Source: Croceivirga sp. (GTDB taxonomy: Bacteria > Bacteroidota > Bacteroidia > Flavobacteriales > Flavobacteriaceae). Taken from it: a stretch of DNA of 64,000 bases. The number at the start of each line of letters is the position of its first letter. The stretch's first letter is position 1. The notes beneath the pieces were generated by a model. The model made no database searches and was not told the origin of the DNA. It worked only from the letters and a program-made list of their open reading frames with translations. Below, one piece after another: positions 1 through 44,048 of this stretch. The position numbers were made by a program, and so were the translations under genes. Where the stretch lies: the NCBI GenBank assembly GCA_028284285.1, contig JANQSA010000047.1:1-64000 (forward strand), given 5' to 3'.

Positions 1-1284
1 GGTGATGGCGTTTCCAACGGTGATGAGGACACCAATGGGACAGATCCTTATTTGGTCTCCGGCGATACCGATGGCGATGGTATAGATGATGACAATGAGG
101 CGAACGACAGCACGGACCCCGCAGACCCCTGTGACCCGGTGCAGGCCACCGGTTACACGGGTTATGATGCCGGGAACGTTATATGGGCTGCTGCAGACTG
201 CGATGGTGATGGCGTTTCCAACGGAGATGAGGACACCAATGGGACAGATCCCTATTTGGTCTCTGGCGATACCGATGGCGATGGTATAGATGATGACAAT
301 GAGGTGAACGACGGCACGGACCTCGCAGACCCTTGCGAACCGGTTCAGGCCGCCGGTTACACGGGTTATGATGCAGGGAACGCCATATGGGCTGCTGCAG
401 ACTGTGATAATGATGGTATTACTAATGGAGATGAGGACACTAATGGTACGGACCCTTACTTAGCCGCTGGCGATACCGATGGCGATGGTATTGATGATGA
501 CACGGAGACCAATAACGGTACAGACCCATCGGACCCCTGTGACCCTGCCCAGGCTGCCGGTTACACAGGTTATGATGCCGGGAACGCACTATGGACCGCT
601 GGGGACTGTGATGGTGATGGGGTTACTAATGGGGAAGAGGACACCAATGGGACAGATCCCTATTTGGTCTCTGGCGATACCGATGGCGATGGTATAGATG
701 ATGACAATGAGACGAACGACGGCACAAACCCTTCAGACCCCTGCGATCCGGTACAAGCCTCGGGTTATACGGGCTACGATGCCGGAAATGCGATCTGGGC
801 CGCTGCGGACTGTGATGGGGACAGAGTGACGAACGGAGCTGAGGATACCAATGGTACGGACCCCTATTTGGTCTCTGGCGATACCGACGGCGATGGAATA
901 AACGATGACAATGAGGCGAACGACGGTACGGACCCAGCGGATGCTTGCGACCCTGTTCAGGCTGCAGGCTACACGGGTTATGATGCCGGAAATGCGATAT
1001 GGGCCGCTGCGGACTGTGATGGTGATGGTGTCACGAACGGAGCTGAGGATACCAATGGTACGGACCCCTATCAAGCCTCAGATGACACAGACGGTGATGG
1101 AGTGGACGACGATACGGAAACAAACAATGGCACGGATCCATCAGATCCCTGCGACCCAGCCCAGGCTGTGGGCTATACGGGCTATGATGCTGCGAATGCC
1201 CTATGGGCTGCTGCTGACTGTGACGGGGATAATTTGACCAATGGAGAAGAATTAATGTTGGGAACAGAAGTTTATAGTGCTGAT
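1..1284 (+). repeat. In-frame tandem repeat array, period 204 bp (68 aa)
   Basis: Unit starts at 61, 265, 469, 673, 877, 1081 (each +204); window begins inside a further unit. Confidence 0.95.
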
Positions 1285-1866
1285 ACCGATGGAGATACTA
1301 TAATTGATGGCCAAGAGGTTGCAGATGGAACCAATCCTTTCGATGATTGCGACTCTTTGGGTGGGACCCCACTTCCAGATACTCTCTGTGATAGAGATGA
1401 CGACGGTTTAAGTGATGATGATGAAGCAGCCCTGGGTACCGATCCCGACAACCCTGATACTGATGGAGATACCATTAATGATGGGCAGGAGATTTCTGAT
1501 AATACTGATCCACTGGATCCATGTGATTCTGATGGAGGTACTCCGCCGCAAGGTACAATTTGTGGTGTTGAAATTGCAAATACTATCATCACACCGGACG
1601 GAGATGGTGTCAATGATTTTTTTAGAATAGAGAATATTGAATTGTTTGCCGATAACAGCGTAGAAATTATCAATCGCTGGGGGGCTCCAGTTTTCAAGAC
1701 AGAAAACTACGACAACAATTCCAATGCTTTTGAAGGAATTGCAAATACAGGTGTTTCCCTTAATAAGGGAAATGTGCTGCCAGCCGGAGTGTACTTTTAC
1801 GTCATAAAATATATAGATGAAGGGGAATCCAGAAACGCCTCAGGGTATTTGTACATCAATCAATAA
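1..1866 (+). CDS. Calcium-binding (thrombospondin type 3-like) repeat surface protein with C-terminal T9SS type B sorting domain; 5'-truncated by window edge
   Basis: Frame is open from base 1 (the ORF track's TTG start at 52 is an artifact of the edge); repeated DTDGDGIDDDNE units; C-term ITPDGDGVNDFFRIENIE...NRWGAPVFKTENYDN...LPAGVYFYVIKY is typical of the gliding-motility-associated C-terminal domain. Confidence 0.9.
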   Translation, partial: GDGVSNGDEDTNGTDPYLVSGDTDGDGIDDDNEANDSTDPADPCDPVQATGYTGYDAGNVIWAAADCDGDGVSNGDEDTNGTDPYLVSGDTDGDGIDDDNEVNDGTDLADPCEPVQAAGYTGYDAGNAIWAAADCDNDGITNGDEDTNGTDPYLAAGDTDGDGIDDDTETNNGTDPSDPCDPAQAAGYTGYDAGNALWTAGDCDGDGVTNGEEDTNGTDPYLVSGDTDGDGIDDDNETNDGTNPSDPCDPVQASGYTGYDAGNAIWAAADCDGDRVTNGAEDTNGTDPYLVSGDTDGDGINDDNEANDGTDPADACDPVQAAGYTGYDAGNAIWAAADCDGDGVTNGAEDTNGTDPYQASDDTDGDGVDDDTETNNGTDPSDPCDPAQAVGYTGYDAANALWAAADCDGDNLTNGEELMLGTEVYSADTDGDTIIDGQEVADGTNPFDDCDSLGGTPLPDTLCDRDDDGLSDDDEAALGTDPDNPDTDGDTINDGQEISDNTDPLDPCDSDGGTPPQGTICGVEIANTIITPDGDGVNDFFRIENIELFADNSVEIINRWGAPVFKTENYDNNSNAFEGIANTGVSLNKGNVLPAGVYFYVIKYIDEGESRNASGYLYINQ

Positions 1867-3240: not shown

Positions 3241-4218
3241 TTATTTACCGTTTTGTGCTTTTTTACCCTTAATGTAATCCGCTATGACCTTTGCGATCAG
3301 TTCTCTTCCATGATTGTTCCAGTGCCAATCATAAATTAGGGTGACGGGCTTAGTAGTACTTTCAAATGTGGGGGCAAAATCAATATATTTAAAGCCATTT
3401 TCATTACAATACGCCAAAAAGGAGGCCTTAGTTTTTCTTGAGTCTAGTAGTATTGTGGTTTTGCTTTTATCATATCCATACAGATTTACCAAACTCTTAA
3501 AATTTTCCAGATATTCCTGCTCCTTTCGTTGAGCAGCTTTTGATTGGTCAACATCAACTGTATTGTTTTCATATGCTTCGGTAGTATTTTGGAAAGCCTG
3601 ACCTGTAACCAACTTTTTAATGGGTTCCAGAATTCCAACTTTAGAGCCATAGGCCAAAAGCTTAACATTGTCCCGTATTTTAAAGACTGTTGAAGATAGC
3701 ATTGCAATTCGTTCCCTATTAGGCTCATAGACACCGCGTTCTAAATCGCTTTCATAATTGAGGTAAATGATTATTTCATCAATAAGATTAAATTGCTCTT
3801 TGTAGGCCTTGATCAAATGCATTTGGTTGGCCAAATCATAGCCTGCATAACCATATTGATATACTTCAACCGTGTCCAAGATTGTTTCTATTTTTTTTCC
3901 TGTCGAATCATAATAATCCTGGTGAAACCCTTCAATAAACGAGTCTCCTATCAGCGCTATTTCGAACTTTTCCTTTGTTGGAACAAATTCCCTATGGGAA
4001 TTAAATCCTGTGGTATTGATATTGAATTCGGAAAAATTCTGGTTTCTGTTGCCGGTTACAGCATAGCCATTATGCCCCGGCACACGCTTTTCAACAAGAT
4101 ATTCATCTATATAACGCGGTGGATCTTCCGTATACAGGTGAAAAACCCGCACGATGGTTTCAAGAAGCAAAAGAATCAGGAAGACGTACAGTACTGTTTT
4201 TAACAAAAACTTTTTCAT
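3241..4218 (-). CDS. SGNH/GDSL-like protein associated with MBOAT acyltransferase
   Basis: N-terminal TM, 'ALIGDSFIEG' GDS block, C-term 'YDWHWNNHGRELIAKVI' (D-x-x-H-like); preferred start MKKFLLK at 4218, 4 bp from upstream MBOAT. Confidence 0.7.
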   Translation of the reverse strand: MKKFLLKTVLYVFLILLLLETIVRVFHLYTEDPPRYIDEYLVEKRVPGHNGYAVTGNRNQNFSEFNINTTGFNSHREFVPTKEKFEIALIGDSFIEGFHQDYYDSTGKKIETILDTVEVYQYGYAGYDLANQMHLIKAYKEQFNLIDEIIIYLNYESDLERGVYEPNRERIAMLSSTVFKIRDNVKLLAYGSKVGILEPIKKLVTGQAFQNTTEAYENNTVDVDQSKAAQRKEQEYLENFKSLVNLYGYDKSKTTILLDSRKTKASFLAYCNENGFKYIDFAPTFESTTKPVTLIYDWHWNNHGRELIAKVIADYIKGKKAQNGK

Positions 4219-4222
4219 GCTG

Positions 4223-5677
4223 TTAAAATTGGAAATAGATGAAGGATCGGTTAACGCCATCGTCATAAAACAGAAGCATAGCCAATACTACTATGGTATA
4301 TAGTAAGATGCGAACCATTTTTGATTTGAATTTGAATGGACTGCGCTCATCTTTTCTTATCAAATATTCATAAAACACAAACAGGCCCAACAACACATAA
4401 AAATCGGACATTCTGTAGCCCATAGGATGAACATAAGGCTCGTATGCAAAGTTTGTAACTATTCCATTGATGTATTGAAAGGAATCTGTTAATGAGGGCG
4501 ATCTAAAGAAAATCCGTGAAAAAGTAACCAAAGTGAAGGTCAAAAGCACCTGCAACACTTCAATTGGAGTAGGAAAAAGACGGTTCTCCCCTATCACGTT
4601 GTGGGCATACATTCTATTGCGTCCCATTAAAAAGACAGGAATATAGAAGAGCGCGTGAAGCCCCCCCCAAAAAATAAAAGTCCAATTGGCCCCATGCCAA
4701 AAACCACTCACCAAAAAAATTACAATAATGTTTCTAACAGATTTCAGTTTGCTTACCCGCGATCCCCCCATAGGGATGTAGAGATAATGCCTGAACCAAG
4801 TGGATAGGGAAACGTGCCATCTTTGCCAATATTCAGCTACGTTTCTTGAAAAACTGGGAAACCTAAAATTGGACTTGAGCTCAATTCCAAAAAGCTTTGC
4901 CGTGCCAATTGCGATATCCGAATAACCACTGAAATCTCCGTATACCTGAAAACTGAACAAGCAAACACCAAGAATCAGTGTAGAAGCTGAGTAGGTATGA
5001 TAGTTGGCAAAAACATCATCAACAATTGGAGCAATAGAATCCGCTATCACCAGTTTTTTAAAAAACCCCCATAAAATAAGCTTTAAACCGGCAGAGGCCT
5101 GTGGATAACTAAAGGTTCGTCCCTTTCCAATTTGGGACAATAAATTTGAAGCTCTCTCAATAGGCCCTGCGACCAGTTGGGGGAAAAAGGATACAAAAGC
5201 CATAAACGCAACAAAGTTGTTAGTTGGTTTTAACTTTTTATAGTAGATGTCAAACGAATATGACATGGTCTGGAACGTATAAAATGAAATTCCCACCGGA
5301 AGAATTATCCGCAAAGTCCAGGTGCTTTTCATTTGATATCCAAATAGTTGGAAAAAATCGATAAAAGAGTCTAAAAAGAAGTTACAATATTTAAAAAATC
5401 CCAGCATCCCTATGTTGAACGCCATACTCACCCATAACCAATACCGCGCTTTTTTCCTGATATCAATATTTTGATAGATCTTTTGCCCTACAAAGAAATC
5501 CACCAGGGTACTTAGAAAAATTAAAGCTAAAAAGCGCCAATCCCACCAACCGTAGAACAAATAGCTGGCAAAAATCAAAAACAGGTTTTGGACAAGTGTT
5601 TTTTTATTAAAAAAGAACCAGTATAGAAAGAAAACAAGAGGTAGAAATAGTAAAAACTCAATGGAATTAAATAACAT
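4223..5677 (-). CDS. MBOAT family O-acyltransferase (AlgI/PatA-like)
   Basis: MLFNSIEFLLFLPLVFFLYW, LPVGISFYTFQTMSYSFDIY, EYWQRWHVSLSTWFRHYLYIPMGGSR, SGFWHGANWTFIFWG motifs. Confidence 0.93.
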   Translation of the reverse strand: MLFNSIEFLLFLPLVFFLYWFFFNKKTLVQNLFLIFASYLFYGWWDWRFLALIFLSTLVDFFVGQKIYQNIDIRKKARYWLWVSMAFNIGMLGFFKYCNFFLDSFIDFFQLFGYQMKSTWTLRIILPVGISFYTFQTMSYSFDIYYKKLKPTNNFVAFMAFVSFFPQLVAGPIERASNLLSQIGKGRTFSYPQASAGLKLILWGFFKKLVIADSIAPIVDDVFANYHTYSASTLILGVCLFSFQVYGDFSGYSDIAIGTAKLFGIELKSNFRFPSFSRNVAEYWQRWHVSLSTWFRHYLYIPMGGSRVSKLKSVRNIIVIFLVSGFWHGANWTFIFWGGLHALFYIPVFLMGRNRMYAHNVIGENRLFPTPIEVLQVLLTFTLVTFSRIFFRSPSLTDSFQYINGIVTNFAYEPYVHPMGYRMSDFYVLLGLFVFYEYLIRKDERSPFKFKSKMVRILLYTIVVLAMLLFYDDGVNRSFIYFQF

Positions 5678-6606
5678 ATACTAACTGTTTGTATTTTACC
5701 GGGATTTTTTTACCCCTTTCTTGCTGTTAAGAATACAAATGTCCCTGGTCCTGGAGTAATGAAGCGATATATGATCCGAATGCTCCTGAGTCAAAAAAAA
5801 ATCATTGATAATTTGTTTGTCAATCGGTAAGTTATTCTGCTTCAAGTTGATTTCTTTCAATGATTCTGTGGGCATTTCTGTTATTGTTTCAAACTTATAC
5901 AATGGGGTCAGATTTTGGTGCTTTATACCCTCCTTTTAGTTTTTTCTTGATTTATGACATCTTGTGTTGACCCTTTGGAAAACAAAAACGCCAAAATACT
6001 TGACTTGTTGCCTTTTTTAAGACATAAAAAAGACCGCTCATGGAAAACTTGGAATTAAGTATGCGATGGTTAAATTTAGGTATTTCATGGGGACATCTTT
6101 TTTAAGCGATAGCCAAAATGGTGCAAATGTTCATTGAATTCTTGATCCCTTAAACATTGCTTTAATTCAAAAAGAGTTTTATGATTAGGAGGGTGCACTT
6201 GGATAATGGTGATTATTTTAAAAAGTATAAGATAATGCAAATCATATCTTTTTTTTGACCATTGTGTTTTATAGTCAAAATGGCCTTCGGAGAGGAAAAA
6301 ATGACCAATGGGGGTAAGAATCGTTCAAAATATACAGAAAAGGAACTCAAGAACAGGAGCTCAGAATTTAGGAGATATTTTTTTGAAGGATTCGCAATAT
6401 CGTATGCTGGTTTAAGCACATCCAAAAGCGCCACTTCTGTAGGACATTTGCACGGGATAAAACTAAGGTGTTCTAGGTGTGTTTTTAAACCGTAAAGGGG
6501 GAATAAGGGCTATCTTTGCTTTTTAACGATAAAACCTATTCCTTCAGGGACAAAATCTTGACCTAAGAAGTAATAAGATTACTTTTATCCAGGCTTTATC
6601 ATCCAG

Positions 6607-7443
6607 ATGAATATTGTAAATGAAATATTAGAGCAAAGTACACCGATAGAGGAGTTAAAAGAAGTGGATGCCGCTACATTCAAAAAAAGGTATTTCAACG
6701 GTAAGCGCCCTGTTTTAATAAAGGGCTTTGCCAATGAGTGGGCTGCTAAAAAAAAGTGGAATCTTGATTACTTTTTGAGTCTTAAAGGCGATAGGGATAT
6801 CCTTCTTTTGTCGGAAAACTTTATTCAGAATGATAATCGATATAAGAAAGCCTCCTTCAAAGAATATATTCAAAAGCTCAAGGATTCAGAATCAGGCCAG
6901 AAAGAGGTCAAAGATTATTTGACCACATTGAATATATTTGAGTACTACCCAAACTTAAAAGAGGATATCGATTTTTCGCTTTTCGAAGACCTGACCAAGA
7001 CCAACGAGGTTACCGCTTGGATAGGGCCATCAGGAACGATTTCCGGTTTCCATGCAGATACCGCCAACAATATGTATGCCCAGATCAAGGGAAAAAAAAT
7101 GTTCATCATCTGTTCTGCAGATTTCAATAAACAGATGTACCCAAGCGATAAGCATATCTATGAGGCCGTGGCAAGTCAAGTGGACATCAATAATTTTGAC
7201 CCAGAACGTTTTCCAAGATTCAATGAGGTGGATTTTATCAAAGTAATTCTGGAACCCGGAGATGTGCTGTATCTTCCACAGAGATGGTGGCACTATGTAC
7301 AATCTCTTGATCCTTCAATAAGTATAAGCAATTTTGGCTATACCACGTTTGAATCATATACTTTGAAGTTTTTTGAACGGGTAAAACATTCACTGCACAA
7401 AAGAGGTTATTACAAAGCCGGAAATTGTTTTTGCTGCAATTGA
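6607..7443 (+). CDS. Cupin_8/JmjC-like domain protein (putative Fe(II)/2OG oxygenase)
   Basis: RPVLIKGFANEWAAKKKW; SGFHADTANNMYAQIKGKKMFI (HxD); PGDVLYLPQRWWHYVQSL; terminates in GNCFCCN. Confidence 0.8.
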   Translation: MNIVNEILEQSTPIEELKEVDAATFKKRYFNGKRPVLIKGFANEWAAKKKWNLDYFLSLKGDRDILLLSENFIQNDNRYKKASFKEYIQKLKDSESGQKEVKDYLTTLNIFEYYPNLKEDIDFSLFEDLTKTNEVTAWIGPSGTISGFHADTANNMYAQIKGKKMFIICSADFNKQMYPSDKHIYEAVASQVDINNFDPERFPRFNEVDFIKVILEPGDVLYLPQRWWHYVQSLDPSISISNFGYTTFESYTLKFFERVKHSLHKRGYYKAGNCFCCN

Positions 7444-7503
7444 ATGGTACTTGATTTTGTCAAATTACCTGCCCTAATGGCTTCCAATCAGAACTAGCTG
7501 ATG

Positions 7504-8670
7504 CTAGCTCTCTACAACGATTTTCTGAATTTGACTACTGCCAATAAAGCAATACTCTTTCTTGTTCGGTGCTTCATAAATTTCAATCGAAGATACCTTT
7601 TCAAGTTGTGCATAGGCAAAATCATACAAGGGTTTTCTTAAATGTTCATAGGAGGTGTTTGAGATGGGGTTTACCCGGGTGAAATTTGACAGCTCTTTCT
7701 TATCAAAACTGCCTTTTACAATGGTGTATTTGGGAGGTAAGCCCTTTTTCTTGCCCAGAAGGAAATTCTTAACTCGATGATAGATTACATTGATATTTTT
7801 GGCCAGCAAAAAGTTGATGAATTGTGTTTTAGTGGAAACATAACCTACCATCATTCGCGAAATGATTGAAGACTGTCTAAAGAACAAATGATGTTCAAAA
7901 TTGTACGTCGTATTGCACCACTTGATTTTATAGTCAAAAGCTCCATAACCCATATCTAGCATTACATAGGCATTTTCAATACACCATTCCAATAGTTTTT
8001 TAATGCCAAGGTTACCAAGTCCAAATTTTGCATAATCGATATCATAAGAGGGAATGGCCAAGAAAAAAATGTTAGCGTAATGATAGCTCAACGAAATCTG
8101 AATGGGTCTTGAATCATGGTAGATCACAAATAAAGAGGCACTTTTCTTGTTGATCATGGCAAAGGTATTTTGCTGGTAATCGTCCCACCTTTTGAGGACC
8201 ATGTTTTTGTCATTACGTTGATTAAACCGCCTGACCAACATGGCATGGAGGTTTTGCATGATGTATTCGTATTCCTTGCGTTCAATATGGCCATGGTACA
8301 TCGCATATCGCACATTAAAACAGGTTTCCAGCCCTTTGAATCTTCTTCTTAAGGATGTCCTGAAGTTGGGTTTGAAATGCGTGCTGAGATAGGTGTCTGC
8401 ACTATCTACCTTAATATCTATGGCAAACCCTTTTACCCGGAAGATTTTTTTTAACCGTAATTCCGGATGATGATTTCTTTCAAAATCCAAGTAGGAGGGA
8501 AATAACTTTATGTACCATTGAACAGCTTTCGTTTGAGAATCAAAAAGGGTGTTTTTGTAAATGGGCTCTTGGGCGTTCTTAAGGAATAAGGCCTGGTAGA
8601 TGTTCGGCACTGTTCTTTTTTCGAAAAACCCAAAATAAAAACCTGCTTTTTTAAATCTTTTTCTGCCCAT
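7504..8670 (-). CDS. GNAT/FemAB-like (BioF2-like acetyltransferase) paralog 1
   Basis: KSASLFVIYHDSRPIQISLSYHY...YDIDYAKFGLG...LLEWCIEN...DYKIKWCNTTYNFEHH shared with three neighbouring ORFs. Confidence 0.7.
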   Translation of the reverse strand: MGRKRFKKAGFYFGFFEKRTVPNIYQALFLKNAQEPIYKNTLFDSQTKAVQWYIKLFPSYLDFERNHHPELRLKKIFRVKGFAIDIKVDSADTYLSTHFKPNFRTSLRRRFKGLETCFNVRYAMYHGHIERKEYEYIMQNLHAMLVRRFNQRNDKNMVLKRWDDYQQNTFAMINKKSASLFVIYHDSRPIQISLSYHYANIFFLAIPSYDIDYAKFGLGNLGIKKLLEWCIENAYVMLDMGYGAFDYKIKWCNTTYNFEHHLFFRQSSIISRMMVGYVSTKTQFINFLLAKNINVIYHRVKNFLLGKKKGLPPKYTIVKGSFDKKELSNFTRVNPISNTSYEHLRKPLYDFAYAQLEKVSSIEIYEAPNKKEYCFIGSSQIQKIVVES

Positions 8671-8769
8671 TGGTGGTTACTTTAGATGGGGTTTTACCCA
8701 GATTAAACGGGTTTGTTTAAAGTATTGGAACTCCGTTCTTGATGGGTTTTCAATATAGCCCAAAGCGAA

Positions 8770-9960
8770 CTAATTTTTAAAAATAATGGTCTGAACATTC
8801 TTTTTCCCTCTAATCAGATAAGTATTTTGTTCGTTTATAACCTTTAATACCTCAATTGAATCTTTGGTCTCTTTTGTTGAATAAATAAAATCATTGACAA
8901 TGGCTTTAAAAGGAAGTGAGCACTGATCACGATAATTCACTTTTTCAAATTCTGTATGGGAATGGTTATGCCCTATATTGGATTTTTCATAGGTTATGGC
9001 TTTTCCCGTTGTCGAGATCTTGTTTTTTTTCAAACGCATTACCGTTCTAATTCTCCTGTATAGAATATCCACTTTTTTTGATTTAAGATATTCTTTGGCA
9101 TGAAGTTTTGCACCTTCCAATTTTGCAAGTAGGGTAGCGCCCAAAGACCTACGATCAAAACTGATTTCATATTTGAATTTATACACATAATTGCTCCAAT
9201 TGCTTTTGTAGTTTAAATCTCCATACCCAAAGTCGAGCAATTTGTAATTATTAGAATGACACCATTCCAATAATTTTACTTTTTCAATAAGCCCCAACCC
9301 AAACTTGTAGTAGTCAATATCGTATGAAGAAACCGCACCAAACATGATCGTCTTAAAATGGTAGTTTAAAGAAATATCTATAGGAATTGTATCATCATAA
9401 ATAACAAATAGCGAGGCTTTCTTTTCATTGATCTTTTGTTTTGTGACTTTCAATAGCTCATCCCATTCCTTTAGTTTTTCATGTATGTCTTGACGTTGCT
9501 CAAACCTCCTTGTTAACATAGTATACAAGCAATGCATCAAATACGAATACTTCTCAGGTGTTATGGCTCCGTGAAAAAAATCATAGTGTATTTTGTAACA
9601 ACTTTCCAGCCTAACTAACCTTTTCTTGACGCTCCGATAGTTGCTTTTCAGTTGTCGTTTCAAAAAATCCTCAACCTTAAAACCTTCGGTAATTTTTACA
9701 GCATAACCCAAATTAGTTTGATTATGAGCCTTTGATTTAATGTGTTTTGGAGCAATTACATCGAATTCAAGGTAATCGGGTATTAGGGCTACGGAATAGG
9801 CCAAATGACCATCATCCGAAGCATGATCTTGATTCTTTTCGCTTTGCGAAGTATGCAGAACATGGTCTCCTAATCGAATTCTAGAATATACTTTAGGGAT
9901 CTTTTGTTCAACAAAAAGATCCATAAAGAAATTAGGTGTACGGTGAATGTACTTTCTCAT
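8770..9960 (-). CDS. GNAT/FemAB-like paralog 2
   Basis: KKASLFVIYDDTIPIDISLNYHF...YDIDYYKFGLG...LLEWCHSN...NYKSNWSNYVYKF. Confidence 0.7.
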   Translation of the reverse strand: MRKYIHRTPNFFMDLFVEQKIPKVYSRIRLGDHVLHTSQSEKNQDHASDDGHLAYSVALIPDYLEFDVIAPKHIKSKAHNQTNLGYAVKITEGFKVEDFLKRQLKSNYRSVKKRLVRLESCYKIHYDFFHGAITPEKYSYLMHCLYTMLTRRFEQRQDIHEKLKEWDELLKVTKQKINEKKASLFVIYDDTIPIDISLNYHFKTIMFGAVSSYDIDYYKFGLGLIEKVKLLEWCHSNNYKLLDFGYGDLNYKSNWSNYVYKFKYEISFDRRSLGATLLAKLEGAKLHAKEYLKSKKVDILYRRIRTVMRLKKNKISTTGKAITYEKSNIGHNHSHTEFEKVNYRDQCSLPFKAIVNDFIYSTKETKDSIEVLKVINEQNTYLIRGKKNVQTIIFKN

Positions 9961-11165
9961 TTTACAAGGTCAGCTTGGTAAACCACTTTAAACCACTGTA
10001 TGTTATTCTTCCCTTTTACGAGATACACATCTTCTTCTTGGTCTACCTTATAAATTTTTATGTCTTTTGAGGTCTCCAAATAGGAATATTGAAAGTCGCA
10101 AACGGGTTTTCTAAGAAAGGAATTAGCCTCCTCCCTTAAATTCAAAAGTGTCAAACCTAGATCTATAGGATAGAATTGCCGAGGTAAAATTTCAAATCTT
10201 GGCCCCAAGTATTTGTTTTGTTGTTCTTCTTTTTTGTTGAACAATTTTCGAATGGAATAATATGTTTTGTGCAAATTCTTTTTCTTTAGAGACGCCTTAG
10301 CCCTATAGTAATAGACCAGACCCAGTGCTGTCACTTTCGATTCGAGGTTATTTTTTGAACAAATGACCTGATGTTCAAAATCATAAACCACATTACACCA
10401 ACGGCGCTTATATTCCATATCTCCCGGACCTAAATCAAACAATTGAAAATTGTTCCTTATGCACCATTCAATTTGTTTATAGATGTCAATTTGGCCTAAA
10501 CTAAATCTAGCGTAGTCAATATCGTAGGCAGCAATTGCATTGTGATGGATGTTTTGATAATGGTAACTTAGACAAATTACAATGGGTTCCTCGTTGTCGT
10601 AGACCGCAAAAAGGGAAGCCTTTTTGTTTGTTATCATTTCAAATGTTGTTTCCAATAGGAACTCCCAACTATCAAAAAGTTCATGCTCGACACCTTTTTG
10701 TTTAAAACGTTTGTCGAGGAACGAATGGAGTTTAGAGAATAGAAAGTCATACGTTTCTTTTGAAATATATCCGAAATAGAATTTATAATCAATTTCGAAA
10801 CAAGCTTCCAATTTTCGAATATACCGTCTTATCTTGCGGCCTTTAGTGCCCATTTTTTCCTTTATATATCCATCAATGTCGTGGAAGCCGTTTAGATCAA
10901 CCATAAAGCCCTCGTTCCCTGCCATGCGAAATGGAACGATGTGCAATGCATTTCGCTTTGTATCACTCATATGAGGCTTTAAAAAGGGGGGAATGTAATT
11001 GACCACATATATTTTCTTTCCTATTTGATTGCCATCATCTTTTGTCCCAGATTTAAGTAGTTGGCCATTGGTCGTATTAAGAACCCCAGAATAAAAAGGA
11101 TAGGTCTTTCTTAGTTGAAGAAAATCAAAAATAAACCGATATTTTTTTAATCTGGGAAAAACCAA
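9957..11165 (-). CDS. GNAT/FemAB-like paralog 3
   Basis: KKASLFAVYDNEEPIVICLSYHY...YDIDYARFSLG...IEWCIRN...EYKRRWCNVVYDFEHQ; 4-nt overlap with paralog 2. Confidence 0.7.
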   Translation of the reverse strand: MVFPRLKKYRFIFDFLQLRKTYPFYSGVLNTTNGQLLKSGTKDDGNQIGKKIYVVNYIPPFLKPHMSDTKRNALHIVPFRMAGNEGFMVDLNGFHDIDGYIKEKMGTKGRKIRRYIRKLEACFEIDYKFYFGYISKETYDFLFSKLHSFLDKRFKQKGVEHELFDSWEFLLETTFEMITNKKASLFAVYDNEEPIVICLSYHYQNIHHNAIAAYDIDYARFSLGQIDIYKQIEWCIRNNFQLFDLGPGDMEYKRRWCNVVYDFEHQVICSKNNLESKVTALGLVYYYRAKASLKKKNLHKTYYSIRKLFNKKEEQQNKYLGPRFEILPRQFYPIDLGLTLLNLREEANSFLRKPVCDFQYSYLETSKDIKIYKVDQEEDVYLVKGKNNIQWFKVVYQADLVK

Positions 11166-11183
11166 GGCTTTGGTTTAGGTTGT

Positions 11184-12431
11184 TTAGAGTATTTTAAGTT
11201 GTATCTTTTTCTCTTTTCCGGAAAGTACAAAGCTCGTGCTGTCTGATTCTTTCTCTCCAAATAATTCAAGTTGATAATAAGGCTCATTGTTCAGGTATAG
11301 AAAGTCAAAAATTGCTTTTTTTAAAAAAAGATTTTCTGATGCATCAAGATCCATTTTATGAAACTTTTTGGCCGAAAACCCCTCTTTCAACTCTGCAAAT
11401 TCATACTTCAAAGGCGGCTCTTTTTGACCAAATAAAGTTTTGACCCGAAAAGTGAATCGGTGTAATTTCTCATTTATTCTTTTGTCTCGCAGGTATTGTT
11501 TCAACATAAAGAAGTTTCTTAAGACAGTGGCTAATATCCTTGCGTTTAGCGATGTGGAGTCATAAATTACATGATAGTGGAAGTCGTATGCTTTATTTGC
11601 CCATCTTTTTTTGTAATCAAAATACCCCTTAGAAAAATCAAAGATTTTCACATCGTGTTGCAAGCACCATTCCAAAAGTTTCATAATGTTTATTGAGCCT
11701 AAATGAAATTTAGAGTAATCAATGTCAAAAACGGTAATGGCATCAAAAAGGACGTCTTCTGAAAAATAGTTCAACGTCACTGCAATTGGCTGATCATGGT
11801 CATAGATAACAAAAAGCCCTGCCTTTTTTTCCAAAATCATAGGGTAGGCCATTTCTTGATAAAAGTCCCATTCCTGCTTTTCCAAATTGTTATTGGTTAC
11901 CTTCTTATCTGCAAATCTTTTAACCAGGAGTTCTTTAAATCTTTTGAAAACAAAATCGTATTCATTTTTTGACATGTGTCCATAAAACATTTTGCTACTG
12001 ATATCAAAACAGGTCTCTAGTTTTTTCTTGTACTTTTTTAGCTTATATCGGCTACTCTTTTTAAAGGTGGCGGCCATAAAGTCATTTAAATCGCTATAAG
12101 GGGTCAAATCAATCAAGAACCCTGGGTATTGTTTGATTATATGTCTTTTTATCGTTGTGTCATAGAATTCAGATATTCCAATAGAAAAAGAGGGTACATC
12201 ATAAATTAGGAGCACTTTTCCCTTCAGATCTTCCGAATTTGTGTCATCTACCAAGTAACTTATACCTTTGGTGTGTGTTTTTCCAACATTGACGAAAAGA
12301 AATGGAAAATGGGTTTTAACAAAAAAAAGTCCTTTAATGATATCAAAAGTTCTGCCTGGTCGCGATTGATTAAAGTGTTTTGACCAAATCGCGGTAAAAG
12401 TTTTTGAGGTGAATGGGTTGGTCTTTATCAT
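11184..12431 (-). CDS. GNAT/FemAB-like paralog 4
   Basis: KKAGLFVIYDHDQPIAVTLNYF...FDIDYSKFHLG...LLEWCLQH...DYKKRWANKAYDFHYH. Confidence 0.7.
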   Translation of the reverse strand: MIKTNPFTSKTFTAIWSKHFNQSRPGRTFDIIKGLFFVKTHFPFLFVNVGKTHTKGISYLVDDTNSEDLKGKVLLIYDVPSFSIGISEFYDTTIKRHIIKQYPGFLIDLTPYSDLNDFMAATFKKSSRYKLKKYKKKLETCFDISSKMFYGHMSKNEYDFVFKRFKELLVKRFADKKVTNNNLEKQEWDFYQEMAYPMILEKKAGLFVIYDHDQPIAVTLNYFSEDVLFDAITVFDIDYSKFHLGSINIMKLLEWCLQHDVKIFDFSKGYFDYKKRWANKAYDFHYHVIYDSTSLNARILATVLRNFFMLKQYLRDKRINEKLHRFTFRVKTLFGQKEPPLKYEFAELKEGFSAKKFHKMDLDASENLFLKKAIFDFLYLNNEPYYQLELFGEKESDSTSFVLSGKEKKIQLKIL

Positions 12432-13462
12432 TTGGTATAATAATATTCGCTTTTATACCGATAGGGAGGAAAAAAATTTGCATTGGTAGGTTCTTTACAT
12501 TCTGCTATCATTTTTTGATAGACATTGGGATCTACAATTAATTTCCAGACATAAAAATCAACCATATTTTTTGAGAAAGACGACTTAAATTGAAGCAAGG
12601 TATCGTTGGCGCCTGAAAGCCCACCACCTAAATTAAAATAACTCAAACCGCGTTCGGTAGCCTTTATTCGCATATCATCAATTAAGAGCTTTATAGGCAT
12701 CAGTGGCAAGCTGTCTCCTCTTGTACCGGACAGGTGATAGTGAATAACAGAATTTTTGTAGATGAACATACCTGCACCAATAGTTTCACCGGTATCCTGG
12801 TGTTTGGCCAATAAGGTTTCGGTATGAAAACTATTACTCTTCGTGAGCACATTAAAATAGTGGTCATCAAAATAATACCTTGGTTTTGCATTGACCCTGT
12901 CCATGTTTTCGCGATAGAGTTTGTTGAAGTCTTGAAACTCATCATCATTGAAGGCCTTTTGAACATAACAATGCCTTCTTATTTTGTTCAGTTGCCCCTT
13001 AAGCCTTCTTCCGAACTCTTTTCGTTGTTGTCCAATGTTCTTTTTGAGATCGATACTAACAACCACCCCTTTTTTCTCCACACTTCCTATCTTCTCAAGG
13101 ACTTTATGTTGTTGTTGCATAAAAGGATTTAGTCTTGAAAAAACGGAAATAATATTGTGGTCTGAAAAGTATTCAAGTAGCGCTTTCGAATAGTGCTGGC
13201 TGTTAAAATCTACCGGTATGTTTTGACATAAGGGCCCGGGATATCCGTAAACTGAAGTAGCATCAAAAAAAGGGGTATTCGGAATATTTCGTATTAATAG
13301 GGGGAGACCAATCCTGGTATCCTCATGGGAATATTTCAACAGTACGGGCCTTCCATCACCCTTCGCAATCATATGGTAGTCAAAGGTGTGATAAAAGTCT
13401 GAATGGTCAAAGGTGGAAACGAAGTCATCCCAACCCTCTTTTTCTTTAATAATTTCAATCAT
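12428..13462 (-). CDS. FemAB/FemX-like GNAT protein
   Basis: FVSTFDHSDFYHTFDYHMIAKGDGRPVLLKY; GAGMFIYKNSVIHYHLSGTRGDSLPLMPIKLLIDDM; GLSYFNLGGGLSGANDTLLQFKSSFS. Confidence 0.8.
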   Translation of the reverse strand: MIEIIKEKEGWDDFVSTFDHSDFYHTFDYHMIAKGDGRPVLLKYSHEDTRIGLPLLIRNIPNTPFFDATSVYGYPGPLCQNIPVDFNSQHYSKALLEYFSDHNIISVFSRLNPFMQQQHKVLEKIGSVEKKGVVVSIDLKKNIGQQRKEFGRRLKGQLNKIRRHCYVQKAFNDDEFQDFNKLYRENMDRVNAKPRYYFDDHYFNVLTKSNSFHTETLLAKHQDTGETIGAGMFIYKNSVIHYHLSGTRGDSLPLMPIKLLIDDMRIKATERGLSYFNLGGGLSGANDTLLQFKSSFSKNMVDFYVWKLIVDPNVYQKMIAECKEPTNANFFPPYRYKSEYYYTK

Positions 13463-13586
13463 TTACATCAGGGTGATTTTCATTAGACCCTACACTTTTA
13501 TGTAGTAATATTTATAAAAACGATTGAGAGAAGGAAATATTTTTAAGGATAAAATTATCAGGAATATTCGATTTAATAGAATTCCC

Positions 13587-13601
13587 CGAGGCTCTGCCTC
13601 G
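13587..13601 (+). repeat. Left-end hairpin of IS200/IS605-like element
   Basis: CGAGGC-TCT-GCCTCG perfect 6-bp stem, just upstream of TnpA-like ORF. Confidence 0.7.
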
Positions 13602-13631
13602 AGTGTAGCGTGATGTTCTATTTTTGTGGGT

Positions 13632-14078
13632 ATGAGCGATCACATCCACAAGAGCCACAACAAGAGTCTGTTGATGTATCATTTTGTCTGTCCTATCAAG
13701 TACCGCCGCAACGCGCTGAGCGAGTAGGTCTTGAAGACCTTCCGTTCGGTGTGTTTGAAAATAGAGTAGTGGTACGAGATCCACTTTTTGGAGATTGGCC
13801 TTGATGGGGACCACGCCCATTTTCTTGTTCAGAGTGTCCCGATGCTCTCCCCTGGAAAAATCGTCAACGCTTTGAATAGCATCACGGCAAAGGAAATTTT
13901 CCGACTTCATCCCGAGGTCAAACGGCAACTTTGGGGCTGGGGATTCTGGACGATCGGCTACTATGTGAATACAGTGTGGTAGTACGCCAACGAGGATATG
14001 ATAAAGAAATATCTCCGGAATCAAGCAAAACAGGACAAGGGGGAAAAAGAGATACATAAGAATCAATTACGTTTGTTT
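13632..14078 (+). pseudogene. IS200/IS605 family TnpA-like transposase, interrupted by three in-frame TAG codons
   Basis: Single-frame translation MSDHIHKSHNKSLLMYHFVCPIKYRRNALSE*VLKTFRSVCLKIE*WYEIHFLEIGLDGDHAHFLVQSVPMLSPGKIVNALNSITAKEIFRLHPEVKRQLWGWGFWTIGYYVNTVW*YANEDMIKKYLRNQ...; HAH (HUH) motif. Confidence 0.85.
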
Positions 14079-22881: not shown

Positions 22882-23703
22882 TTAAGATAAAGAATTTCTT
22901 TCCTTAATTAAATTTGCGGTTAAAAGCTCGTATTCCGCGTCAATTGATTCGTTTTTATAAGAGAAGGCTCTGTTTGTTGCTGCGTTTTTCGAACGATCTT
23001 TGATTGTAGAAGTTTCATCGATCAAAGTCTCAACCAATGGCAAGTTGTTGTCTATTTCCTTGATCTTAATGTAAGTTACATTTTTTAACAAACTGGTTTT
23101 TTTAGTCCAGTCAAAATAATATTGAATCAATTTGTCGATTATTTCTTGGTTCTTTTTAGTTTCGACCCCAATTTGAAATTCACGTAAATCTATACCTACC
23201 TTTCTTTTCCAAAATAAATCAACGACAAAATCAAATTGGAAATGGAGTAGGGAATCTGATCTGTAATAGTAGTTTATCAAAGAGGTTACCCATGAAGAGG
23301 GAGGTCTTAGTGTCCAAATGTATTCCAAATCCTTAGCGATTTCATTTTCAGACAACTCACTGATGTAAGCACTCAAAAATCCGGAACATTCCAACTTGAG
23401 ATTTAGATAGTTCATTCGTTTTGCGAAAAAATCGTCAAAATTTTTATCGAGATATTTCAATGTTACATGATGAAGCGGTTCGTGTTGTGATATTTCTGGA
23501 CTAAAACAGCTTGCCAAATAGGTTGTGCCTGTTTTATATGGTGAAATGCAGTATACCGTTTTTCGTTTAACCTCTGATTTCAAAGGGGGTATGCCCGCAT
23601 ATAATATCCTTGCCTGAATATTTTTTACATTTTCGGCGAAAGGGGTTCGAACAATGTAACGTTTAATCGAATTGGTTATGCTCATGAATTTTGTATTTGC
23701 CAC
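22882..23703 (-). CDS. Sulfotransferase-like P-loop protein
   Basis: KTVYCISPYKTGTTYLASCF resembles the 5'-phosphosulfate-binding loop; ~50% similar by eye to 24092..24901. Confidence 0.7.
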   Translation of the reverse strand: MANTKFMSITNSIKRYIVRTPFAENVKNIQARILYAGIPPLKSEVKRKTVYCISPYKTGTTYLASCFSPEISQHEPLHHVTLKYLDKNFDDFFAKRMNYLNLKLECSGFLSAYISELSENEIAKDLEYIWTLRPPSSWVTSLINYYYRSDSLLHFQFDFVVDLFWKRKVGIDLREFQIGVETKKNQEIIDKLIQYYFDWTKKTSLLKNVTYIKIKEIDNNLPLVETLIDETSTIKDRSKNAATNRAFSYKNESIDAEYELLTANLIKERNSLS

Positions 23704-24091: not shown

Positions 24092-24901
24092 CTAATTAGG
24101 GGAAACTTGCAATTTATCAATTAGTTCTTTGTATTCCTTGTCAATATTTTCATTTTTATAAATAAATTTCTTTTCATCGTTTATTTTCTTCCATCCATTC
24201 TCCGTGATTGTTTTCTCATTTATTAGTGATTCTATGAGCGGAAGGTTTTCGTTAATTTCTTTCAAATGTATATAAGTAATATTGTTCAATAATCTTGTTT
24301 TGTTTGTAAATTTGAAATAGAAGTCAATTAACTTATTTATTATTTGCTTATTTGTTTCTGTGTCTTCTTCAAAATTGAAAGAACGCAAATCGACGCCAAC
24401 TTTATTCTTCCAAAAAAATTCAATTGCAATTTGAAACTGAAACTCTAACAATGTTGGCTTATTCCAATAGTTTATTACAGACGTGATCCAGGATGAAGGG
24501 GGTCTTAAAATGCATATATATTCTAGGTCTTTTGCGACTTCATGGTTAGCTAATTGGTCGATATAAGCACTCCAACAACCAGAGCATTCTAGCTTTAGCC
24601 CTAAGTAATTCATTCTTTTTACAAAGTATTTATCAAAATCCTTGTCAAGAAGTTTATAAGTGATATAATGTATAGGTTCATGCATAGCAACTTCAGAACT
24701 GAAAACACTGGAAAGGTAAGTGGTCCCTGTTTTATATGGGGAAATACAATACACGGTTTTTTTCGAGGTATTGACTCCAGAACTATATCTGCTTAATTTT
24801 AGATATATCAATTTTCCCTGTATATATCTTAAGTGTCTTCCTAGAGGGGATTTCACTAAACGGAACTTTAATTTTTCAATGGCAGCCATTTTTAATAACA
24901 T
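24092..24901 (-). CDS. Sulfotransferase-like P-loop protein, paralog of 22882..23703
   Basis: KTVYCISPYKTGTTYLSSVFSSEVAMHEPIHYITYKLLDKDFDKYF... co-linear with paralog. Confidence 0.7.
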   Translation of the reverse strand: MLLKMAAIEKLKFRLVKSPLGRHLRYIQGKLIYLKLSRYSSGVNTSKKTVYCISPYKTGTTYLSSVFSSEVAMHEPIHYITYKLLDKDFDKYFVKRMNYLGLKLECSGCWSAYIDQLANHEVAKDLEYICILRPPSSWITSVINYWNKPTLLEFQFQIAIEFFWKNKVGVDLRSFNFEEDTETNKQIINKLIDFYFKFTNKTRLLNNITYIHLKEINENLPLIESLINEKTITENGWKKINDEKKFIYKNENIDKEYKELIDKLQVSPN

Positions 24902-38691: not shown

Positions 38692-39465
38692 TCAAGATAA
38701 AAGGTGTTTAAATTCAGAAGAACCTATTTTCCTTACCAATTCGTCGTAATTTAGAATCAATTCTTTTAAACTTTCTGGATTTTGCCGTTTAAGATTGAAA
38801 TTGGATTCCTTCATTTTGTTATTCTCTATTCCTAAAAATGAGTAAATACGGCTTATTTGGTCTTCTCTGCTTTGGATAAGTTCTTCATAGGAAAGTTCAA
38901 GGTATTGATGATTTGGAAACCGAGTTTTACCGTATTGCGCTTCTAACGCTTTGGATTCCCTGAGCGCTTCTAAACAATGCTCTACATCAACTTTTACACG
39001 TTTATCCAAGACCTCTTTTTTTTCTCCTTCCTGCATACTATTCCAGGATCCAGTCTTAATGGCAATTAATTTGGAAACATAGACCCTCAAAATATTCTCA
39101 CGCTTTATGTGTATGATTTTCACGTCGGTATTAGCCGATAGGATTTCCCAAACTTCCCTGTCCTCGCTGTCATCGGGATGATTATAAAAAAGTTTAAATC
39201 CGGCGTATTGTATCCAAGGTAGTTTCTTAGAAAACAATTCTTCCCAAACGGTTCTACAACTTCTACCCTCCAATAATCGAAATACCTCACCCCGCATATC
39301 AATTTTAGGATGGTCATGAAGCAACATCATCAATAGACTTGATCCCGTTCGCTGTCGGCCAAGAATTACCAATTTTTTGTATTCCTTGTTTCCAAAAACT
39401 TGGCTAATAAAATGTTTGAGTGCCGCTTTTAGAAAAATATATGTTGAGGTTTTTGAATTTGCCAT
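38692..39465 (-). CDS. Sulfotransferase-family protein
   Basis: KKLVILGRQRTGSSLLMMLLHDHPKIDMRGEVF; DVKIIHIKRENILRVYVSKLIA; LSYEELIQSREDQISRIYSFLGI. Confidence 0.85.
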   Translation of the reverse strand: MANSKTSTYIFLKAALKHFISQVFGNKEYKKLVILGRQRTGSSLLMMLLHDHPKIDMRGEVFRLLEGRSCRTVWEELFSKKLPWIQYAGFKLFYNHPDDSEDREVWEILSANTDVKIIHIKRENILRVYVSKLIAIKTGSWNSMQEGEKKEVLDKRVKVDVEHCLEALRESKALEAQYGKTRFPNHQYLELSYEELIQSREDQISRIYSFLGIENNKMKESNFNLKRQNPESLKELILNYDELVRKIGSSEFKHLLS

Positions 39466-39915: not shown

Positions 39916-41172
39916 CTAAACTATCATCCCGGCTGCCACGGTTTCATTGGTATTTTCGTCGATTAGAATAATGCTACCAGTGGTCCTGTTTTCCCTATAA
40001 GAATCAACCATTAGCGGTTTGGTGGTACGAATTCTGACTTTGCTGATATCATTCATATTCAGTGTTGTATCATCTGCTTTTCTCCCAAGGGTGTTGATGT
40101 CAATCTTGTAAATGATTTCTTTAATCATAGCAGTCTGCTCATTTGAAGTATGTCTTATGGCGTATTTAGCTCTGGGTTTGGCCGATTCGTTGTTGAGCCA
40201 ACAAAGCATTACCTCGATATCCTGGGAGGTAGTAGGTTTATTGTTGGACCGAACGATCATATCGCCTCTACTAACGTCAATATCATCTTCCAATGTCATC
40301 GCTATAGAAATTGAAGCAAATGCCTCTTGCAATTCACCGGCGGGACCATGGATGGATTTGATTGTCGAGGTAAAGCCGGATGGCATCACTGTAATCTCGT
40401 CGCCAATTCTAAAAATCCCACTTGAGATCCTGCCGGCATACCCTCTGTAATCAATAAACCCCTCCCTTTGAGGACGGAGTACGGTTTGCACCGGAAATCT
40501 TGCATCAACCTTGTTCAGATCGCTGCTGATATGCATGGTTTCCAAAGTGTGCAATAAGGGGGCACCTTGATACCAAGACATGTTTTCTGAACGATTGACC
40601 ACATTATCACCCAAAAGTGCGCTTATGGGAATAAAGCGGATGTCAGTGACTAAAAGCTTGGATGAAAATTCTTCAAATTGCCTTGAAATGGTATCGTAGA
40701 CCGCTTCTTTAAAATCTACCAAATCCATTTTATTGATACAGACTATAATATGAGGTATTTGAAGTAAAGAAGCTATAAAGGCATGCCTCTTGGTTTGTTC
40801 TATTACTCCATGACGCGCATCTACCAAAATAATTGCCGCATTGGCTGTTGATGCACCGGTAACCATATTTCGGGTATATTGTATATGCCCGGGTGTGTCA
40901 GCAATAATAAACTTACGTTTAGGGGTTGTAAAATAGCGGTAAGCGACGTCAATGGTAATGCCCTGTTCCCTTTCATCACGAAGTCCGTCGGTGAACAGTG
41001 CAAGATCCAAGCTATCATGGCCTTTCTTTTTGCTGGTATCCGTAATGGCCTCGAGTTGATCTTCAAAAATTGATTTTGAGTCGTAAAGCAGCCTTCCTAT
41101 CAGTGTGCTTTTACCATCATCAACGCTTCCTGCGGTAGTAAATCGCAATAATTGATTGTTGTTTGTTACCAT
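39916..41172 (-). CDS. cysN: Sulfate adenylyltransferase subunit 1 (GTPase)
   Basis: RFTTAGSVDDGKSTLIGRLLYDSK, DTPGHIQYTRNMVTGAS, CINKMDLVDF; start taken at MVTNNNQ (41172). Confidence 0.95.
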   Translation of the reverse strand: MVTNNNQLLRFTTAGSVDDGKSTLIGRLLYDSKSIFEDQLEAITDTSKKKGHDSLDLALFTDGLRDEREQGITIDVAYRYFTTPKRKFIIADTPGHIQYTRNMVTGASTANAAIILVDARHGVIEQTKRHAFIASLLQIPHIIVCINKMDLVDFKEAVYDTISRQFEEFSSKLLVTDIRFIPISALLGDNVVNRSENMSWYQGAPLLHTLETMHISSDLNKVDARFPVQTVLRPQREGFIDYRGYAGRISSGIFRIGDEITVMPSGFTSTIKSIHGPAGELQEAFASISIAMTLEDDIDVSRGDMIVRSNNKPTTSQDIEVMLCWLNNESAKPRAKYAIRHTSNEQTAMIKEIIYKIDINTLGRKADDTTLNMNDISKVRIRTTKPLMVDSYRENRTTGSIILIDENTNETVAAGMIV

Positions 41173-41185
41173 GTTTCCAATTAGT

Positions 41186-42091
41186 TTAAAAATACCCTTG
41201 CTTTTTTCTATCCTCCATCGCCGTTTCTGATCTTTTGTCGTCACTTCGGTTACCGCGTTCGGTTTTTCGCATAGCCGATACCTCCTTTACAATTTTATCA
41301 ATAGTGTCGGCATCCGATTCAATACCTCCGGTTATGGTAATGTCTCCAAGGGTTCTAAACCGTATCTTTTTTGTTTCCACCGCTTCATCTTCCTCCAAAA
41401 TCAAAAACTCAGATTTCGGAATCCAGGAATCATTCCTCCAGACCACTTCGCGTTCATGGGCTAAATACAATGAAGGAATTTCTATTTTCTCTCTGGCAAT
41501 ATAATTCCAGACGTCCATTTCTGTCCAATTGCTTATAGGAAACGCCCTAAAATGTTCTCCTTCAAAGTGCCTTCCATTGAAGAGGTTCCATAGTTCGGGT
41601 CGTTGGTTCTTAGGGTCCCATTGTCCAAAATCGTCCCGATGCGAGAAAAATCGCTCTTTAGCTCTTGCCTTTTCTTCGTCTCGTCTACCACCTCCGATAG
41701 CGCAATCTACTTTATGGGATTCAATTGCATCGAGTAGCGTTGTGATCTGGAGTGCGTTTCTGGTAGCGTTCTTGCCTTTTTCTTCAGCCACCCTTCCCGT
41801 ATCTATTGACTCTTGAACAGAACCTACAATTAAACGGGCATCCAATTGTTTTATCAAGTCATCCCTAAATTTTATGGTTTCGGGAAAATTATGCCCGGTA
41901 TCCACATGCATTAAAGAAAAAGGGATCTTACTGGGGTGAAATGCCTTTTTGGCCAGATGGGTCACTACTATAGAATCTTTTCCTCCGGAAAAGAGAATAA
42001 CCGGATTCTGAAATTGCGCCCATACCTCGCGTAATACGTATATTGCCTCAGACTCGAGTTCATCGAGGTAATTTAAATAGTATTTACTCAT
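41186..42091 (-). CDS. cysD: Sulfate adenylyltransferase subunit 2
   Basis: YLDELESEAIYVLREVWAQFQNPVILFSGGKDSIVV; GGRRDEEKARAKERFFS; FPISNWTEMDVWNYI. Confidence 0.96.
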   Translation of the reverse strand: MSKYYLNYLDELESEAIYVLREVWAQFQNPVILFSGGKDSIVVTHLAKKAFHPSKIPFSLMHVDTGHNFPETIKFRDDLIKQLDARLIVGSVQESIDTGRVAEEKGKNATRNALQITTLLDAIESHKVDCAIGGGRRDEEKARAKERFFSHRDDFGQWDPKNQRPELWNLFNGRHFEGEHFRAFPISNWTEMDVWNYIAREKIEIPSLYLAHEREVVWRNDSWIPKSEFLILEEDEAVETKKIRFRTLGDITITGGIESDADTIDKIVKEVSAMRKTERGNRSDDKRSETAMEDRKKQGYF

Positions 42092-42686
42092 GTTCTTGGA
42101 GCCTTAGTTTATTTGTTATTCGATTATGGATCAGTTCTACAGACCCTTCCAAAGTATTCTTTTCGGTTACTTCCACATCAGGGGATTCGGGGGCTTCATA
42201 AGGCGCCGAAACACCGGTCATATTTTTAATTGTTCCCTCACGTGCTTTTTTGTACAATCCCTTTACATCTCTGCGCTCACATACTTCCAGACTGGTGTTG
42301 ACAAAAACTTCAAAATAATTGTCGGGTGCTACCGTATTTTTAATAAGATTCCGATCTTTTTTATAAGGGGCAACAAAAGCAGCAATCACTACCAGGCCCG
42401 CATCAATGAACAGCTTGGTTATCTCACCAATTCTTCGGTTATTTTCCGAACGATCTTCAGGGCTGAATCCCAGATCTTTGTTGATCCCTTTTCGCACATT
42501 ATCACCATCGAGAACATAGGTTTTGATTCCCTCCGAAACCAAACGCTGTTCCAGAGCATTAGCAATGGTGGATTTTCCCGAACCGGAAAGCCCCGTCAAA
42601 AATATTAAAAAAGAATTGTGCGAATTGTTTCTTCTTCTTTCCTTTCGGGTAATTCCGTAAGTGTGCGTTATGATATTTTTCGCCAT
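42084..42686 (-). CDS. cysC: Adenylylsulfate kinase
   Basis: FLTGLSGSGKSTIANALEQRL, VLDGDNVRKGINKDLGFSPEDRSENNRRIGE, GVSAPYEAPESPDV. Confidence 0.95.
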   Translation of the reverse strand: MAKNIITHTYGITRKERRRNNSHNSFLIFLTGLSGSGKSTIANALEQRLVSEGIKTYVLDGDNVRKGINKDLGFSPEDRSENNRRIGEITKLFIDAGLVVIAAFVAPYKKDRNLIKNTVAPDNYFEVFVNTSLEVCERRDVKGLYKKAREGTIKNMTGVSAPYEAPESPDVEVTEKNTLEGSVELIHNRITNKLRLQEHE

Positions 42687-43099: not shown

Positions 43100-43101
43100 T
43101 G

Positions 43102-43905: not shown

Positions 43906-44048
43906 AAAACTCTTTTTAAGTATAAAATTCGTAAAATTGAGTATCAAAATCCATTATACAGGTATAAATACGACATAACGATTAAATATGTCGACAACAA
44001 ATAGGTTACTTCCCAAAAAAGACGCAAATTTTAAACATTTATTGTGAA

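Follow-up and report, generated by a model that had tools for sequence, protein, structure and literature searches.

We report that a stretch of 64,000 nucleotides from the flavobacterium Croceivirga sp. (GenBank assembly GCA_028284285.1, contig JANQSA010000047.1, positions 1 to 64,000; hereafter the window) carries a FemX-like gene followed by an array of four divergent paralogs of the broad GNAT/FemAB-type class, with a gene for a cupin_8/JmjC-type oxygenase at the other end of the array. Comparison with related loci reveals that the paralogs occupy ordered, orthologous positions (slots) in different flavobacterial genera and that the FemX-like and oxygenase genes are linked to the array. 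In terms of function, the reading that we favour, and for which we see the balance as even, is that the FemX-like protein and the four paralogs are cytosolic, tandem-GNAT-type and probably transfer RNA (tRNA)-dependent aminoacyl transferases that decorate exopolysaccharide precursors.

Organization of the array

The five genes form a tight, operon-like run on the minus strand, with the FemX-like gene first and the four intact paralogs thereafter; slots are numbered from the FemX-like end (slot 1, 11184-12431, to slot 4, 7504-8670). Consecutive genes overlap by 4 nucleotides at two junctions, FemX-like/slot 1 and slot 2/slot 3, and the remaining gaps within the array are 18 and 99 nucleotides. 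These genes, their coordinates and the sequence core that they share had been described in a first-pass annotation and were confirmed here. The features are:

12428..13462, minus strand: FemX-like aminoacyl transferase gene, 344 amino acids, first in the operon (PF02388, fold, K293, position upstream of the array)
11184..12431, minus strand: array paralog, slot 1, 415 amino acids (PF13480; orthogroup of 43 genes)
9957..11165, minus strand: array paralog, slot 2, 402 amino acids (PF13480; modelled with AlphaFold2 and searched with Foldseek; pairs with Robiginitalea slot 2, 99/95)
8770..9960, minus strand: array paralog, slot 3, 396 amino acids (PF13480; pairs with Robiginitalea slot 3, 100/99)
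7504..8670, minus strand: array paralog, slot 4, 388 amino acids (PF13480; groups with Robiginitalea slot 4 and a gene that ends a Eudoraea array, 100/100)
6607..7443, plus strand: cupin_8/JmjC-type Fe(II)/2-oxoglutarate oxygenase, 278 amino acids (PF13621, E 1.9e-46; conserved C-terminal cysteines)

The paralogs are only distantly related, with 29-32% identity to the first paralog and approximately 50 invariant columns (including DIDY, F, LG, EWC, G, YK, W and N), and all four pass the cut-off for PF13480 (Acetyltransf_6; 31.7-52.1 bits vs 22, E 2e-7 to 1e-13). In its own genome the array family is represented by these four intact members alone. The FemX-like protein matches PF02388 with 33.6 bits (cut-off 24) over part of the profile, positions 297-380. 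The cupin_8 gene had been taken to diverge from the array; it is in fact convergent with slot 4, tail-to-tail, and divergent from the MBOAT gene described below.

Just upstream of the FemX-like gene, at 13580-13982, broken plus-strand frames (MSDHIHKSHNKS..., GLDGDHAHFLVQSVP...) resemble, by appearance only, a decayed IS200-like transposase.

Distribution and conserved order

Relatives of the array proteins were detected with a four-row profile (E ≤ 1e-10) in 69 of 301 sampled Flavobacteriaceae genomes, well beyond what chance would give and many of them with at least six members, while a phylum-wide draw gave 5 positives among 396 genomes, all of them Flavobacteriaceae. Moreover, 74 loci were recovered from 84,980 species genomes, 71 of these being named Flavobacteriaceae and three lacking a family assignment. 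So far the family thus appears to be restricted to Flavobacteriaceae, limits that hinge on search sensitivity given that distant PF13480 proteins were widespread in control searches. The copy number per locus varies between 1 and 7.

The array of the window and that of Robiginitalea (L036) correspond one to one in order. In the IQ-TREE phylogeny slot 1 falls within a clade of ten genes (support 100/98), every one of which is first in its array, and slots 2, 3 and 4 group with their counterparts as listed above. Among 374 reciprocal-best-hit pairs from 21 genera the order is kept in 335 (39 discordant), i.e. a concordance of 0.896 compared to 0.502 (standard deviation 0.030) in shuffles, and members of the slot-1 orthogroup head their array in approximately 37 of the 42 cases that could be placed. 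Residues beside a conserved lysine are nearly fixed within slots, DFSKG in slot 1 and DMG(Y/F)G in slot 4. Because orthologous slots keep their order across 21 genera, the array reads as an old, ordered set and not as a recent amplification. The kept order supports distinct, retained roles without proving them, since common ancestry of the locus suffices to explain it; the proposal in the first-pass annotation, by which every paralog would have a donor or acceptor of its own, is a hypothesis compatible with the ancient orthogroups and slot-specific residues.

Linkage to the FemX-like gene and the oxygenase

In 36 of 43 cases the FemX-like gene is the immediate upstream neighbour of the array, on the same strand, with a median gap of -4 nucleotides, and 48 of the 78 genomes with a FemX-like gene also carry the array family (P 4e-19; this test and the one below take genomes as independent). 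The cupin orthogroup (E ≤ 1e-50) is present in 23 of the 301 genomes; these 23 span 20 genera, and not one of them lacks the array family (P 7e-17). Cupin and array share a contig in 18 of them, at distances between 70 bp and 34 kb. The HxD...H iron triad is intact, with H149, D151 and H229 invariant in 13 of 13 orthologs, and the C-terminal cysteines are kept as well. An active Fe(II)/2-oxoglutarate hydroxylase would be expected to have these residues, and the strict link with the transferases suggests that the enzyme hydroxylates the transferred residue or its precursor. In five loci (L037, L042, L045, L053 and L061) cupin and array are accompanied by a recurring gene pair, for an uncharacterised 171-amino-acid protein and a protein with an HTTM domain.

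An MBOAT cluster is found in 45 of the 75 array loci, in genomes that hold just about two MBOAT genes each (144 in 69), and an SGNH cluster in 36; 43 loci have an initiating sugar transferase and 23 have Wza and Wzc. The array homologs are therefore not scattered single genes: the neighbourhood is conserved across genera, and both cupin_8 and MBOAT genes recur in it.

Fold and donor chemistry

A model of the slot 2 protein (the third paralog by coordinate), built by AlphaFold2 with 130 family sequences, reached a mean predicted local distance difference test score (pLDDT) of 93.3 and a predicted template modelling score of 0.91. What had been described as a short, beta-like C-terminal extension is in the model a confident part of the protein of approximately 130 amino acids. 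Foldseek placed FemX first (E 2.4e-8), with a template modelling (TM) score of 0.39 (query) and 0.46 (target) over 263 columns, followed by MprF and the lysyl- and alanyl-phosphatidylglycerol synthases (L-PGS/A-PGS), the streptothricin synthases Sbb17/Sba18, ATE1 and FemA; tandem GNATs that use acetyl-coenzyme A (CoA) ranked below the aminoacyl-tRNA users. These relatives surfaced by the fold search alone, as sequence searches against the PDB, whether started from a single paralog or from the 130-row profile, gave no true relative and no FemX chain. For the FemX-like protein (pLDDT 92.5) Foldseek gave FemX (4ii9/7z6a) with TM 0.70-0.72 over 342-354 columns, and the TM scores were 0.75-0.77 to Sba18/Sbb17 and 0.3-0.5 to CoA users. 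Aligning the array and FemX-like profiles by hhalign matched the second GNAT domain (probability 87%, E 4e-6), and two paralogs show weak similarity to ATE_C.

The array lysine K253 is invariant in 130 of 130 sequences and preceded by Y252 in 88% (YK motif); in the FemX-like protein K293 is invariant in 40 of 40 and forms an FK motif in the window protein. By motif, K253 is likened to the FK of FemX and DhpH-C and K293 to Lys305 of FemX; Phe304-Lys305 in FemX and Phe328-Lys329 in DhpH-C have been reported to be important for activity (PMC12945691, PMC4964394). Conversely, the acetyl-CoA loop motif [QR]xxGx[GA] is absent from the aligned region in 129 of 130 family sequences (1/130 has it). The array proteins are also strongly basic, having a median isoelectric point of 9.3 vs 6.3 for their neighbours. 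Taken together, fold, lysine, missing CoA loop and basic charge favour an aminoacyl-tRNA donor without proving it.

The surrounding polysaccharide locus

Among the genes of the window are those for export and assembly, i.e. a MurJ/MatE-type flippase, a Wzy-like protein, Wza (Poly_export), a Wzc-like kinase/Wzz and a CpsB/CapC phosphatase, and for sugar metabolism and transfer, i.e. an initiating sugar transferase, several GT4 enzymes, a UDP-sugar dehydrogenase and a Polysacc_synt_2 dehydratase with a DegT aminotransferase. By gene content the window is an exopolysaccharide locus of the Wzx/Wzy type, in which the dehydratase/aminotransferase pair would serve an amino sugar. The polysaccharide is probably sulfated because the locus has sulfate-activation genes at 39916-43947 (GTPase, PAPS-reductase-domain protein, APS kinase and inositol-phosphatase-type) and a sulfotransferase at 38692-39465. 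Given this content, the acceptor polymer is probably acidic, sulfated and amino-sugar-containing.

Next to the cupin gene lie four further features:

6079..6300 (approximately), minus strand: decayed remnant of a slot-1-like array paralog (tblastn E 7e-14, 47% over 66 amino acids vs slot 1 of L096)
5708..6061, minus strand: another decayed remnant of an array paralog, interrupted by internal stops (tblastn E 4e-16, 34% over 119 columns vs the third paralog of L096)
4223..5677, minus strand: MBOAT acyltransferase, AlgI/DltB type (PF03062, E 2e-27)
3241..4266, minus strand: SGNH/AlgX-like partner of the MBOAT protein (PF16822, E 3.4e-4, below cut-off)

Both fragments, which had escaped the first-pass annotation, sit between the MBOAT and cupin genes. 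They look like leftovers of an older array in front of MBOAT, because the loci of Flagellimonas algicola (L096), Muricauda lutisoli (L058) and Arenibacter amylolyticus (L056) run in the order array, MBOAT, SGNH; the decayed copies at 5708-6300 also suggest array turnover at the site. Against the NCBIfam DltB model TIGR04091 the MBOAT protein scores 137.7 bits, under the cut-off of 375, and it is classified here as a general MBOAT, short of the level for a D-alanyl-transferring DltB.

Elsewhere in the window two similar proteins (22882-23703 and 24092-24901) are sulfotransferase-like by eye, the first without a Pfam match at 1e-5, and a predicted surface protein whose start is outside the window (52-1866) has long acidic repeats of calcium-binding type (DTDGDGIDDDNE...). 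The Rfam scan of the window found nothing. In the Aquimarina loci L052-L090 single-copy array members are part of a larger conserved cluster, with an AMP-ligase, a GNAT-like protein, PglD types and a PglD + NAD_binding_9 fusion, which perhaps represents a separate acyl-amino-sugar pathway. A Dlt-like carrier was considered for small genes beside some Aquimarina members and rejected, as by eye their products resemble a small protein of antibiotic-monooxygenase type and an AraC-type regulator. Likewise, the OmpA, GT4 and GH3 genes found next to some arrays have the look of a stable housekeeping neighbourhood and were set aside as parts of the system, and a defence or phage origin was dismissed after PADLOC gave no defence match and PHROGs no convincing match.

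Proposed function and alternatives

From these data we infer the donor, the acceptor, the order of action and the hydroxylation as follows. Amino acids would be taken from charged tRNAs and, ahead of export, joined in amide linkage to the amino groups of a sugar precursor that is activated or lipid-linked; the FemX-like enzyme would act first, and the slot-specific paralogs would follow, either by adding more residues or by serving other amino groups. The linked cupin_8 oxygenase would probably hydroxylate one product, and MBOAT with SGNH would provide a separate acyl decoration across the membrane. A stricter version, which we find rather unlikely, is a tRNA-dependent non-ribosomal assembly line, in which the FemX-like enzyme places the first amino acid, each ordered paralog adds one residue, the cupin hydroxylates, and the copy number of 1 to 7 determines how long a peptide side chain is or how it is patterned; if true, the cell surface would diversify as array members are gained and lost.

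Several findings weigh against the favoured reading. The TM scores of array proteins to FemX are modest (0.39-0.47), even with FemX as top match, and PF13480 alone is above cut-off for the four paralogs, with no match to PF02388; the first-pass annotation had named both families, and it is the FemX-like protein that matches the latter. The conserved lysine may be general to the superfamily, and the basic charge could reflect binding to membrane or to an acidic glycan. Array genes are missing from 30 of the 78 genomes with a FemX-like gene. Scans detected no tRNA gene in the window or in 54 related loci, although none would be required, and we found no polysaccharide structure from these strains that has the predicted substituents. 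Finally, AMP-ligase genes, possible makers of acyl donors, are present in many loci, not near the array in the window.

This last point bears on the alternative that the paralogs are N-acyltransferases of the HfsK/PF13480 kind, using acyl-CoA or acyl carrier protein to modify different amino sugars, with the FemX-like protein as a related acylase and no tRNA involved. We regard it as a serious contender, on the doubtful side. PF13480 carries an acetyltransferase annotation, and in related loci a FabH-like gene and PglD-type acetyltransferases occur in addition to AMP-ligases. HfsK, which is a Fem-like GNAT and has paralogs at approximately 30% identity, has been proposed to modify holdfast polysaccharide (PMC5362036), no donor being known for it, and flavobacterial O-antigens bear N-acyl groups, e.g. 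3,5-dihydroxyhexanoyl and amide-linked malic acid (PMC3210612). However, the nearly complete absence of the CoA loop motif, the fold ranking in favour of tRNA users and the lack of an AMP-ligase near the array in the window argue against it. The surface-modification module with a linked oxygenase put forward in the first-pass annotation is well supported by the genomics as one for a polysaccharide; as donor, the fold points to aminoacyl-tRNA and not to acyl-CoA.

That MprF and ATE1 are among the fold matches, and that JmjC/cupin_8 enzymes with an assigned function often hydroxylate protein side chains, would also fit an array modifying a membrane lipid or a protein and placed in the locus by chance or for regulation. 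We consider this improbable in view of the repeated placement in exopolysaccharide clusters of many genera, as seen in the counts for initiating transferase, MBOAT and Wza/Wzc above. Even less probable, in our judgement, is that the copies are redundant tandem duplicates, kept by dosage or drift with no division of labour; the varying copy number and the two decayed copies in the window are in keeping with it, but the slot order over 21 genera, the nearly fixed slot-specific residues next to the lysine and the low identity between paralogs are not.

Comparison with known systems

The paralogs belong to the broad GNAT/FemAB-type class and not to an unrelated characterised family. No description of such arrays was found in the searchable open literature, a search outside of which most subscription papers lie, and in that sense the system is undescribed, as had been suggested; Caulobacter HfsK is, however, a similar system that has been described. 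Bacterial polysaccharides that carry amino acids are known from their chemistry, and the literature searched held no tRNA-dependent route to them. The ordered cross-genus array with its FemX-like gene and dedicated oxygenase is a concrete candidate for a system that decorates a surface glycan with amino acids or peptides in a genetically set order, and may serve as a marker for finding such decoration in flavobacterial genomes.

With FemABX (Weissella FemX; S. aureus FemX/A/B) the FemX-like protein shares the fold (TM 0.72) and the paralogs do so more loosely; the lysine stands in the same motif context, and the stepwise building of peptide bridges on peptidoglycan by several related enzymes acting in sequence resembles the array. 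In contrast, the window locus is for exopolysaccharide and not peptidoglycan, and the paralogs are PF13480 proteins with the extra C-terminal region and up to seven ordered copies; because PF02388 is not matched and the fold match is partial, we do not claim the four paralogs as members of FemABX proper. Orf11 of BD-12 uses Gly-tRNA and streptothrisamine to give glycylthricin (PMC12945691), and like Sbb17/Sba18, whose fold is similar to that of the window proteins, it aminoacylates a known or implied amino-sugar-containing acceptor; theirs are small-molecule antibiotics, with no polysaccharide locus. In Caulobacter, HfsK, which needs its C-terminal extension, and two paralogs adjust a polysaccharide adhesin (PMC5362036). 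By description these are soluble Fem-like GNATs that modify exopolysaccharide with distinct, additive effects, and the window array shares the link to exopolysaccharide synthesis genes; the Caulobacter genes are three and scattered, with c-di-GMP binding, and no FemX-like gene, cupin or ordered array has been reported for them. The PEP-CTERM/XrtA-associated FemAB protein (TIGR03019) also occurs in exopolysaccharide clusters, and the FemX-like protein is a weak match, 22.4 bits, far under the 260-bit cut-off. The window cupin is similar to the FIH, JMJD-type and YcfD (JmjC_2) hydroxylases in its PF13621/PF08007 domains with intact HxD...H, while differing from them in belonging to a flavobacterial orthogroup tied to transferase arrays. 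As judged from the genes, the system of the window appears to combine traits of FemABX, Orf11 and HfsK in an ordered array with a FemX-like protein and an oxygenase.

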